39,298 nt of DNA from Planctomycetota bacterium (GTDB taxonomy: Bacteria > Planctomycetota > UBA8108 > UBA1146), in NCBI GenBank assembly GCA_012960845.1, contig DUAN01000051.1:1-39298 (forward strand). The letters are read 5' to 3'. Below are positions 24,596-32,468 of this stretch, piece by piece; position 1 is the first letter of the stretch; each line of letters opens with the position of its first letter. The notes below the pieces were generated by a model. That model searched no databases and was not told the DNA's origin. It saw only the letters and a list, made by a program, of their open reading frames with translations. The translations under genes were made by a program, and so were the position numbers.

Positions 24596-24655
24596 CGCGG
24601 TCATGCGGAACGCGGTCTTGCGGAACGCGGTCTTGCGGAACGCAGTCTTGCGGAT
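24596..24655. repeat. Short tandem repeat array B (15-bp unit)
   Basis: Four adjacent 15-bp copies of cgcggtcttgcggaa occur, the first and last with one to three changes, followed by a decayed fifth copy to ~24670. The array fills the convergent gap between waaF and mrp. Confidence 0.85.
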
Positions 24656-24684
24656 TGCAGTGGTGAGAGGCTCGGACTGCTCGT

Positions 24685-26041: not shown

Positions 26042-26425
26042 ATGAGTCAGTTTCTGTTCCTGGATATCGGGCAACTCGAGAGTCGACTCCACCATGATGG
26101 TGGCCTTCTGCTGGTCCATTTCGGCTCACCGCTCGTCTCTTCCTGTGGATTCACCCAGAGAAGTCTGGCACTGATCGCACCGGAGTTCTCGGGCCAGATG
26201 CAGTTCTGCACCATCGATGTACCGTTGCAGGAGGTCCAGAATCTGCGCCAGTATTCGATCCGAGTCGTGCCCACCCTGGTGCTCTTCGACGGCGAGCGAG
26301 AAGTGGAGCGCCTCGACCGGATCTTGCTTCCGGCGGAACTGAGGCTATTCCTGCGAGATGTCGTGGGGTATTACGGAGTTCCTCAACCGGCTCCGCGAAA
26401 TGAAGATCCGGGCCTCTCTTCCTGA
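26042..26425 (+). CDS. Thioredoxin-fold protein with a single active-site cysteine
   Basis: The 127-aa product follows the thioredoxin pattern: a beta strand LLLVHFGSPLVSSCGFTQRSL in place of VDFWAxWCGPC, CTIDVPLQEVQNLRQYSIRVVPTLVLFDG with the cis-proline VVPT, and a final helix (LRLFLRDVVGYYG). Only the first cysteine of CxxC is kept (SSCGFT), so it cannot be an ordinary dithiol oxidoreductase; monothiol chemistry or a binding role is possible. There is no signal peptide. GGAAGG precedes the ATG. The gene stands alone, divergent from mrp, and a tandem repeat array begins 29 bp after the stop. I am sure of the fold but not of the function. Confidence 0.8.
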   Translation: MSQFLFLDIGQLESRLHHDGGLLLVHFGSPLVSSCGFTQRSLALIAPEFSGQMQFCTIDVPLQEVQNLRQYSIRVVPTLVLFDGEREVERLDRILLPAELRLFLRDVVGYYGVPQPAPRNEDPGLSS

Positions 26426-26454: not shown

Positions 26455-26584
26455 CCTCGTATTCCTCAGCCTCGTATTCCTTGCCTCGTATTCCTCGCCT
26501 CGTATTCCTCGCCTCGTATTCCTCGCCTCGTATTCCTCGCCTCTTGCTCCTCAGCGTCATGCTTCTCAGCGTCATGCTTCTCAG
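26455..26584. repeat. Short tandem repeat array C (14-bp then 15-bp units)
   Basis: Seven units of cctcgtattcctcg (14 bp; first unit 15 bp, seventh unit a 15-bp variant) are followed by two full and one partial copies of cgtcatgcttctcag (15 bp). The two unit types share about 10 of 15 positions, so one probably evolved from the other. The changing 14/15-bp period rules out selection for a reading frame. The array starts 29 bp after the thioredoxin-fold gene. Confidence 0.9.
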
Positions 26585-26629
26585 CGTCATGGCCGACAAC
26601 CTGTCCCAGTTCTTCTATTCTCCGTGCCC

Positions 26630-26665
26630 TCGAGAATGAGGTCGAGAATGAGGTCGAGAATGAGG
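26630..26665. repeat. Short tandem repeat array D (12-bp unit, three exact copies)
   Basis: Three exact copies of tcgagaatgagg. The reverse complement (cctcattctcga) closely resembles the array C unit with a 2-nt deletion (CCTC..ATTC.TCG), so arrays C and D are imperfect inverted repeats of each other, 45 bp apart. Confidence 0.9.
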
Positions 26666-26982: not shown

Positions 26983-27011
26983 TTGACATTGAGTTTGAAT
27001 AGAGGTACATT
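26983..27011 (+). promoter_or_regulatory. Strong candidate sigma-70 promoter for an intergenic RNA
   Basis: A perfect -35 box TTGACA (26983-26988) is followed after exactly 17 bp by TACATT (four of six to TATAAT). Three copies of CCTGACT (26949, 26957, 26969) lie just upstream and could be iterated protein-binding sites. The predicted start of transcription is near 27016-27018. Confidence 0.55.
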
Positions 27012-27015
27012 GACT

Positions 27016-27085
27016 ACTTGAGTCCCACCTTTCAGAGCCCATGAGGCGCGGCTGGTATCCTCTACCAGCAGCGCCTCTTTTTTTA
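27016..27085 (+). ncRNA. Candidate ~70-nt small RNA
   Basis: The segment lies between the TTGACA-17-TACATT promoter and an intrinsic terminator, giving a predicted transcript of about 70 nt. The 5' ~25 nt are predicted single-stranded and contain CCCACCTTTC, complementary to a GAAAGGTGGG Shine-Dalgarno-like target; the 3' half is the terminator hairpin. This is the ordinary design of a trans-acting bacterial small RNA. It matches no RNA family I know. The alternative is that the hairpin simply ends a long transcript from the thioredoxin-fold gene, but that stop is 600 bp away. Confidence 0.45.
27043..27084 (+). terminator. Near-perfect rho-independent terminator
   Basis: GAGGCGC-g-GCTGGTA, loop tcctc, TACCAGC-a-GCGCCTC forms a 14-bp stem with one mismatch, followed by TTTTTTTATTTTGTTTT. 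It is oriented on the plus strand; on the minus strand there is no T-tract, so it does not serve ino1. Confidence 0.9.
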
Positions 27086-27228
27086 TTTTGTTTTAGTGGT
27101 GACGACTTCCCGACCAGAATCCTCTGCATCGATCGATACGAGTTCCCCGGTTTACTTTTGTAAGACCAGATCGGGAACGTCTCCGCTCGAACGAATTGGC
27201 GGCCGCTCGATCGAAAGGTCGAACTCGG

Positions 27229-28746: not shown

Positions 28747-29064
28747 ACCGGCTCACTTTCTCTAGGGCCAATAGGCCACTTTCATTCATCTTCGCCAGAC
28801 CGATTCGAAATCGGATCTGGAAGTCCCTGACCGGACCACCCTCGGGAATCGCTTCGGGTCTTTCCTTCAGGAACCGTGAAGTGTAGGGGATCGGTGGAGA
28901 TCTGACAAGGGAAGCGGAATGGACTGATCGGATTCGACTGGAGGCTGGACTCAGCCATCCTGGCCGTGCAGGATCGCCATGGCAGGGGGAGAGGAGCCCA
29001 TCCGGTGCATCAGGGACCAAACCAACCGTTGGCGCGGGCCGACCGCCTTTCCCGGAGTTGTGGG
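28747..29064. other. Divergent intergenic region between rpsU and lnt
   Basis: This 318-bp stretch probably holds the promoters of both genes, but no clear -35/-10 pair was identified. One good hairpin is present at 28795-28820 (CCAGA.CGATT / AATCG..TCTGG) in what would be the rpsU leader on the minus strand. The lnt frame is open upstream of 29065 back to beyond 28966, but that part is not protein-like. Confidence 0.5.
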
Positions 29065-30750: not shown

Positions 30751-30950
30751 CGAATATTAGAGAAATTGCTCTAGGTCACTTGTTCGCATGGACTTGTGTA
30801 GTGTCATTGTGCTCATACTGAGCGCTACTCCCGTTCTAGCAAAATGGTGGCCGAAAAAGGGTCTGTATCGGGTCTGTAAAGGGGAAGAGGGTCTTCTCCA
30901 GCACTCGATCTGGGCTGGGACCGAAGACCAGCGTGAAGGGAAAGCAGCGG

Positions 30951-32468
30951 ATGAGACTCAACACCGGCCTTTTCCAGCAACAAACCCAGAAACAGATCCT
31001 CTCTCCCCAGATGATCCAGTCGATGGAGATTCTGGTACTCAACCAGCAACAACTGGAAGAGCGCATCTCGGATGAATTGGAGGAGAATGTCACCCTCGAG
31101 CGGGAGGAATCGGCTGCCGAAGGTTCAGCCAGTGAGGCGATCGGCCTCGACCGGGAGAGTGAATTCACCGAGACATCCGCAGAAGATCTTGCGGGCCAGC
31201 AGGAGTTGACCGAGTTGACTGAGCGCTATGAGCAGTTGCGAGAGCTCCAGCAATCGGACTTCTGGTCCGAATCTTCTCCGATGCAGAAATCGTCGGGGGT
31301 CGATGACGAGGACTCCTTCGAACTGATCGAGAATACCGAAGGGCGACCACAGTCGCTTCCGCAGTTTCTGGTCGATCAATTGAGTCTGAAAAGTCGTATC
31401 GATCTGCGACAGAGGGGGCTCTGTGAGGAGATCATCTACAACCTCGATGATCGAGGCTGGTTGATCCATTCGATCGAAGAGATTCACAATGCATTGGTCT
31501 CTGGAATCGAACTGCCGGGAAGCGATCCGCGACTGGCGGGGAAATCCCCAGCCTTCGAGGAGGTCCTCGCTGCACTGGAGCAGGTGCAGCAACTCGATCC
31601 TGTCGGCGTTGGAGCGCGTGATCTGATCGATTGCCTCTGCCTCCAGTTACATCGTGATCCCGGTGAAAACCAGCTGGAAGAACAGATGGTGCGGCATCAT
31701 CTCGATGATCTGGCGCGCAATCGATTACCCCACATTGTACGGGCCACCGGGCATTCCCTCGAAGAGGTCAAGGTGGCAGTGGATGTGATTCGATCGCTGG
31801 AACCGATCCCGGGCAGGCACTTTCGCCAGGAGCCCAATGCACGAGTGGTCCCGGATGTGATCATCACCGAGGATGAAAAGGGCCAGTTCAAAGTTGAGGT
31901 CAATTCCTCTTCGGTTCCGCGTCTGAAGATTTCTCCACATTATCATGAGTTGCTGAAGTCCTCTCGCAAGGATCCGGAACTACGCAAGTACCTGAAGAAG
32001 CGGATCGAGAATGCCGAGTGGTTGATGGGAGCGGTGCAACAGCGCAGCTCGACTCTTCAGCGAGTTGCTGAAGAGGTGGTCCAGCGGCAAGAACAGTACT
32101 TCCGTGAAGGAGATCGGCACCTGAAACCGCTACGGATGCAGGATGTTGCGGACACCGTAGGGGTCAATGTTTCGACGGTGAGCCGGGCGATCTCGGGCAA
32201 GTGGTTCCAGGCTCCCGGGATGATTCGAGAACTGAGAAGCCTCTTCACCAGCGGCACGGTACGAGACGATGGTTCTCAGGAGTCTCGCGGTGGGGTGATC
32301 GCCCGCATCCAGGACATGGTCAAGGGTGAGGATTCTCGCAAACCACTCAGCGATGCCCAGATCGTCAAGGAACTCGCCGAGAAGGGGGTACGGATCTCTC
32401 GACGAACCGTCACCAAGTACCGTGAGGCGGAGGGGATCCCCTCGTCACGGGAGCGTCGGCAGTACTAG
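30951..32468 (+). CDS. rpoN: RNA polymerase sigma-54 factor
   Basis: The 505-aa product is sigma-54, which directs RNA polymerase to -24/-12 promoters activated by enhancer-binding ATPases. The glutamine-rich activator-interacting region is at the N-terminus (QQQTQKQILSPQMIQSMEIL), followed by an acidic stretch (~45-120), the core-binding domain (QLDPVGVGARDLIDCLCLQL), the helix-turn-helix (VGVNVSTVSRAISGKWFQ) and the RpoN box SRRTVTKYRE near the C-terminus (consensus ARRTVAKYRE). ATG 30951 is chosen since the conserved MRLNTGLFQQQ block starts there; GTG 30933 would add six residues. It stands alone before the ABC operon. No bEBP or hpf gene is adjacent. Confidence 0.96.
   Translation: MRLNTGLFQQQTQKQILSPQMIQSMEILVLNQQQLEERISDELEENVTLEREESAAEGSASEAIGLDRESEFTETSAEDLAGQQELTELTERYEQLRELQQSDFWSESSPMQKSSGVDDEDSFELIENTEGRPQSLPQFLVDQLSLKSRIDLRQRGLCEEIIYNLDDRGWLIHSIEEIHNALVSGIELPGSDPRLAGKSPAFEEVLAALEQVQQLDPVGVGARDLIDCLCLQLHRDPGENQLEEQMVRHHLDDLARNRLPHIVRATGHSLEEVKVAVDVIRSLEPIPGRHFRQEPNARVVPDVIITEDEKGQFKVEVNSSSVPRLKISPHYHELLKSSRKDPELRKYLKKRIENAEWLMGAVQQRSSTLQRVAEEVVQRQEQYFREGDRHLKPLRMQDVADTVGVNVSTVSRAISGKWFQAPGMIRELRSLFTSGTVRDDGSQESRGGVIARIQDMVKGEDSRKPLSDAQIVKELAEKGVRISRRTVTKYREAEGIPSSRERRQY

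Follow-up and report, generated by a model that had tools for sequence, protein, structure and literature searches.

A predicted small RNA conserved throughout a planctomycete order and a second conserved RNA as its candidate partner

The cyanobacterial small RNAs (sRNAs) Yfr1 and Yfr2 contain nearly complementary motifs, and their interaction has been shown (PMC6778093, PMC2190773). In Campylobacter jejuni, which lacks Hfq, CjNC140 and CjNC110 pair through CU-rich and GA-rich sequences, and CjNC110 has been suggested to be under sigma-54 control (PMC10470494). In RepG of Helicobacter pylori, the seed is the C/U-rich loop of the terminator, which pairs with the G-rich leader of an mRNA (PMC8295292). 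Outside well-studied groups, sRNA annotation averages 1-2 per genome (PMC9029176). A literature search for described sRNAs in planctomycete-like lineages found nothing relevant. We analysed a 39,298-nt stretch of a Planctomycetota genome, hereafter the window, and investigated an intergenic element on its plus strand. On balance we favor the explanation that it encodes an order-specific, independently transcribed sRNA of ~65 nt that acts by pairing through its 5' tail, with a second RNA, here named sRNA2, as the likeliest partner.

The element spans 26983-27084 from promoter to terminator. Its sigma-70-type promoter (26983-27011, plus strand), identified by promoter scan and conservation, consists of TTGACA (26983-26988), a 17-bp spacer (26989-27005) and TACATT (27006-27011). 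The promoter has 10 of 12 matches and was the top of the three sites that a sigma-70-like scan found in 6 kb, compared with 1.4 expected in shuffled sequences. The predicted transcript (27018-27084, plus strand; about 65 nt) was placed from the promoter, the terminator and a block conserved in 17 genomes, and its 5' end probably lies about 7 nt past the -10 box (±3 nt). It would carry an unpaired, nearly invariant 5' region, GUCCCACCUUUCAGAGCCCAU (27022-27042, plus strand), which alignment and opening cost predict to be the pairing region. The tail is followed by a terminator hairpin (27043-27077, plus strand) of 7+7 bp with one G/A mismatch, supported by folding and covariation, in which the 5' side GAGGCGC-g-GCTGGTA (27043-27057) and the 3' side TACCAGC-a-GCGCCTC (27063-27077) enclose the loop TCCTC (UCCUC in the RNA; 27058-27062). 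The loop is C/U-rich, is conserved as UAUCCYCUR and is a possible second pairing site. The U-tract of the intrinsic terminator, TTTTTTTATTTTG, occupies 27078-27090, and the T-run is retained in all 17 genomes. The fold of the segment had an energy of -33.9 kcal/mol (z = -4.3), which none of 200 shuffled sequences equalled, and opening the 5' tail cost at most 1.2 kcal/mol in 17 of 17 genomes, so that the tail is predicted to be unpaired. This predicted anatomy, an open tail of ~20 nt plus a terminator, matches a minimal sRNA of the base-pairing type. The initial annotation had read the promoter boxes, the exact spacer, the hairpin and the U-tract directly in the sequence, as we did, and its near-perfect terminator with a 14-bp stem and 5-nt loop is a fair description given the single mismatch; the CCCACCTTTC that it placed in the 5' arm, however, is located in the unpaired tail and not in the stem.

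The element is flanked upstream by a gene for a thioredoxin-fold protein (PF00085; 26042-26425, plus strand) and downstream by a convergent gene for myo-inositol-1-phosphate synthase (MIPS; PF07994/PF01658; 27229-28443, minus strand), both identified by profile match and conserved synteny. As the initial annotation had stated, the site holds neither the start nor the end of a plus-strand protein gene: after the thioredoxin-like frame, which stops at 26425, no gene is recognised on the plus strand until 28966. When the hairpin is read on the minus strand the U-tract is absent, indicating that it is not the terminator of the convergent synthase gene. A conserved reading frame was not found in the element, either in the list of open reading frames or in the 17-genome alignment. 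In four genomes (G010-G013), the frame opened by an AUG in the stem is closed by UGA after four codons, and the tail differs by a 2-nt indel between genera, which together make a leader peptide unlikely. Short tandem repeats (CCTCGTATTCCTCG, CAGCGTCATGCTTCT and GAATGAGGTCGA) occupy 26460-26665, between the thioredoxin-like gene and the element, and a repeated frame, MRNAVLRNAVLRNAVL, is visible at 24603-24660 as well. A triplet of CCTGACT upstream of the promoter had been taken to suggest regulated expression; these repeats are not conserved (two close relatives, G002 and G004, lack them), and we dropped this suggestion.

Conservation was examined by searching relatives with a 211-bp query, whose conserved core (query positions 94-155) corresponds to 27023-27084 of the window. 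All 16 genomes of the family yielded one full-length, high-scoring match each, and the element was also present in the single available genome of another family of the same order (G016), giving 17 of 17 genomes in the order. The 17-bp promoter spacing is exact in 14 of these genomes and TTGACA in 12; in G007, G009 and G016 the -35 box is unrecognisable, and there is only a -10-like box, CACACT, at about the equivalent position. The tail, CCCACC(UU)UCAGAGCCCAU, is nearly invariant across the alignment. Unlike the ~20 nt that precede the hairpin, the rest of the spacer that follows the thioredoxin-like gene can hardly be aligned from one genus to another. Six of the 14 consensus pairs of the hairpin show compensatory double changes, and 96.9% of the alignment cells are paired, a result matched by none of 500 shuffles; slid versions of the alignment pair in only 33-63%. 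The order of genes, thioredoxin-like gene, element, convergent MIPS gene, S21 and Lnt, is constant wherever contigs reach that far, and the arrangement of the element between the thioredoxin-like and MIPS genes is fixed in all genomes whose contig covers both. A chance origin is excluded, mainly by the conservation in 17 of 17 genomes of the order.

Outside the order, no convincing match to the covariance model turned up in 12 genomes of the class, and a sample of 294 genomes of the phylum returned weak matches only, the best with 37 bits (G211). We rejected the phylum matches as homologues: they resemble ordinary GC-rich terminators with C-rich loops, lack the tail and are not syntenic. The sole match in a named genome collection, on an Oscillospiraceae contig, was likewise rejected as a chance match that is non-syntenic and has neither tail nor U-tract. 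Among plasmid and viral sequences, no match to the sRNA was found. None of the 4227 Rfam families reached its gathering threshold in the window, and Yfr1 was absent from the weak matches. Hfq was found above the Pfam cut-off in none of 16 genomes, although the same search was positive in five control genomes, and the weak Hfq matches sit within frames of 316-344 residues, which are not typical of Hfq. The feature expected of an Hfq-dependent sRNA, a genome that encodes Hfq, is thus not found here. Features generally expected of trans-encoded sRNAs are found: an intergenic promoter of its own and a Rho-independent terminator (from sequence and conservation), conservation beyond chance with compensatory changes, and the absence of protein-coding capacity.

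Conservation, covariation and synteny lend strong support to the prediction of an sRNA gene that has a promoter and a terminator of its own, and we consider it very probable that the element is a real small-RNA gene. The earlier proposal of an sRNA is upheld by the same evidence, with its length revised from ~70 to about 65 nt, and the covariance search in related genomes that had been suggested as a check returned the element, with a covarying hairpin, throughout the order. We file it as a predicted new trans-acting sRNA family without an Rfam counterpart. A housekeeping-type polymerase would transcribe the sRNA, which probably acts through base pairing of its 5' tail, to judge from the conservation and accessibility of that segment. 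Pairing in trans would not involve Hfq and would be centered on AGAGCCCAU (27034-27042, plus strand), aided by CCCACC(UU)U. The UUU of the seed originally proposed shrinks to a single U in 4 of 17 genomes while AGAGCCCAU is invariant in 17 of 17, making the latter the more likely core. The targets would be mRNAs, and since both tail and loop are C/U-rich, ribosome-binding sites are the likely class.

In most genomes of the family, the covariance-model search also picked up another conserved terminator, and by tracing upstream from it we found sRNA2. In the genome that carries the window, this unannotated RNA of about 175 nt lies at about 28806-28980 of another contig (C236; locus 28783-28980), where it adjoins a RodA/FtsW-like gene; a dockerin-like repeat protein, which would be compatible with a planctomycete-like lineage, is also encoded beside it. 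Its length is 246-285 nt in genus g4. It is preceded by an invariant sigma-54 promoter (GG-N10-GC, TGGCAC-N6-TGC), and the presence of the rpoN (sigma-54) open frame in the window (30840-32465, plus strand) makes this promoter credible. The 5' end of sRNA2, GUGGGCUCUUUGGGACAGG, contains an invariant GGGCUCU-NN-GGGAC (GUGGGCUCU..GGGAC; GGGCTCT at 28810-28816 of C236). The interior hairpins vary by lineage, and a nearly invariant CUUGCUUCAUUUCUUUCCGAGG precedes the terminator, the loop region of which is AUUUCCCCGAU. No Rfam family matched sRNA2 at gathering level. Of the 16 family genomes, 15 have a single occurrence of the combined promoter and 5'-end pattern; the one other occurrence in the class, in G021, shows poor resemblance. 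The genomes in which sRNA2 was not found, G005 (82% complete) and G016 (79% complete), both contain the sRNA; unless it was missed there, sRNA2 is not the sole partner.

Further elements were seen elsewhere in the class. In another family (G027:C50, G023:C52 and G020:C96), a possibly related RNA has a CUUGCUUCAUUUCUUACGGAAGGGCG.. terminator and a different conserved 5' part, AGGAGCCUGAGAGUU; sRNA2 may therefore predate the order, with a changed 5' end. Three loci in genus g9 (G022:C152:5643, G023:C27:1118 and G027:C31:17051) share another 62-nt tail-plus-terminator element, identical among them, with the loop region AAUCCCCAUUUU, possibly a further sRNA. Within the window, the sRNA shares its gene block with rpoN, which lies about 3.8 kb farther downstream, and in G010 an RpoN-like frame starts ~4 kb from the sRNA.

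Wherever both RNAs are present (15 genomes), the most favorable duplex of the sRNA tail with sRNA2 takes in the very 5' end of the latter, with energies of -20.9 to -29.3 kcal/mol. AGAGCCCAU pairs with GUGGGCUCU, with one end pair lost in G006, and (G)UCCCA pairs with a nearby G-rich segment, e.g., UGGGA(C), in most genomes; in the window this second short match is GUCCCA (27022-27027, plus strand) to UGGGAC of sRNA2. When the tail columns were jointly permuted across all genomes, 4 of 1500 permutations reached the observed mean of -23.8 (null mean, -16.3; standard deviation, 1.7), a test of a pairing that had been noticed post hoc. The complementary blocks hardly vary, and support from covariation is absent. 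Other GGGCTCTN0-4GGGAC sites for which context was fetched are almost all inside open frames. Among the partners identified to date, sRNA2 ranks as the most likely, and on this complementarity we propose it only tentatively as the true one. Equally tentative is a two-RNA circuit in which the 5' ends are complementary and conserved together across the family, Hfq is not found, and a sigma-54 signal would sponge a constitutive sRNA: active sigma-54 would lead to the production of sRNA2, which would titrate the sRNA, or sRNA2 would itself be silenced by the sRNA.

The alternative that survives best, though we regard it as somewhat unlikely, is that the sRNA blocks Shine-Dalgarno (SD) sites (GAAAGGUGG, AGGUGGG and GAGGA) of envelope-protein genes and that sRNA2 plays no role. 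The C-rich unpaired tail and loop would suit such a function, and the SD word GAAAGGTGG occurred before ATG 39 times compared with 16 for the reversed pattern, the real gene starts among these belonging mostly to exported or membrane proteins. A control SD word, GAAAGGAGA, showed the same bias, which therefore reflects how exported genes are initiated in these genomes rather than the sRNA, and we dropped the GAAAGGTGG-SD genes as a target class. We also searched seven genomes for long mRNA stretches able to pair with the tail (TGGGCTCTGAAAGGTGG; at most 3 mismatches), and these near-complementary sites were in no excess over the reversed pattern used as control. The best recurring one, TGTGATCTGAAAGGTGG (G000 and G002), was rejected: it is not before a gene start and appears antisense to the frame of a secreted protein. 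Among eight neighboring genes, no consistent duplex was found apart from a weak one with the heptosyltransferase leader, which about 1-6% of shuffles reached in most genomes and for which conservation at the end of the frame before it is a confounder. For the trans action via CCCACCUUUC on SD-like GAAAGGUGG that the initial annotation had put forward, the unpaired and conserved tail keeps the idea plausible, but long near-perfect sites were no commoner than for the reversed pattern, and genes with GAAAGGTGG as SD did not look different from those with the control word. As an observation apart, strong SD words (GAAAGGTGG and GAAAGGAGA) stand predominantly at signal-peptide or membrane-protein genes in nine family genomes, which suggests a connection, in this lineage, between the strength of the SD and export.

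The very strong conservation of primary sequence, in tail and loop alike, would also be expected if a protein rather than an RNA bound them, the element being a decoy or cofactor RNA. We consider this improbable: the repeated motif of CsrB-like decoys is absent, and the tail fits another conserved RNA better than chance. That the hairpin is merely the terminator of the thioredoxin-fold gene and the promoter-like box accidental is more improbable still, since, although every genome has that gene upstream on the strand of the element and the hairpin and U-tract could stop its transcript, the 20 nt leading into the hairpin hardly vary, which an ordinary terminator would not require, and TTGACA-17-TANNNT is also conserved.

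The preferred reading, an sRNA that pairs through its tail, with sRNA2 as the likeliest partner, has its closest analogues in the systems described above; no homology to any of them was detected in the tests run here. By layout, weak covariance matches to CcsR1 (RF02791; 14.1 bits against a gathering score of 65.3) and ncS01 (RF02865; 17.1 bits against 58) were obtained, and the element is a member of neither family. Like RepG, the sRNA has a C/U-rich terminator loop, UAUCCUCUA, which by analogy could act alike; RepG differs in that its known target is a homopolymeric G-repeat. As with CjNC140 and CjNC110, two sRNAs would pair where Hfq is not found, one of them with suggested sigma-54 control. 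In Campylobacter, a different phylum, stem-loop regions pair and the pairing has been demonstrated by gel shift, whereas here it is predicted from sequence. Yfr1 and Yfr2 offer the likeness of a small, almost lineage-universal RNA with an unpaired C/U-rich motif to which a second conserved sRNA is nearly complementary. The motif of Yfr1 lies between two stem-loops, while here it forms a 5' tail ahead of a single terminator hairpin; the lineage is another, there is no Rfam match, and the putative partner has a sigma-54 promoter. The element thus presents a well-conserved sRNA, from a lineage that seems not to have been studied and in which searches found no Hfq, together with a concrete sigma-54 partner candidate, and if the pairing is true, the two RNAs would join Yfr1/Yfr2 and CjNC140/CjNC110 among the few natural cases of sRNA-sRNA crosstalk outside Hfq-based model systems.
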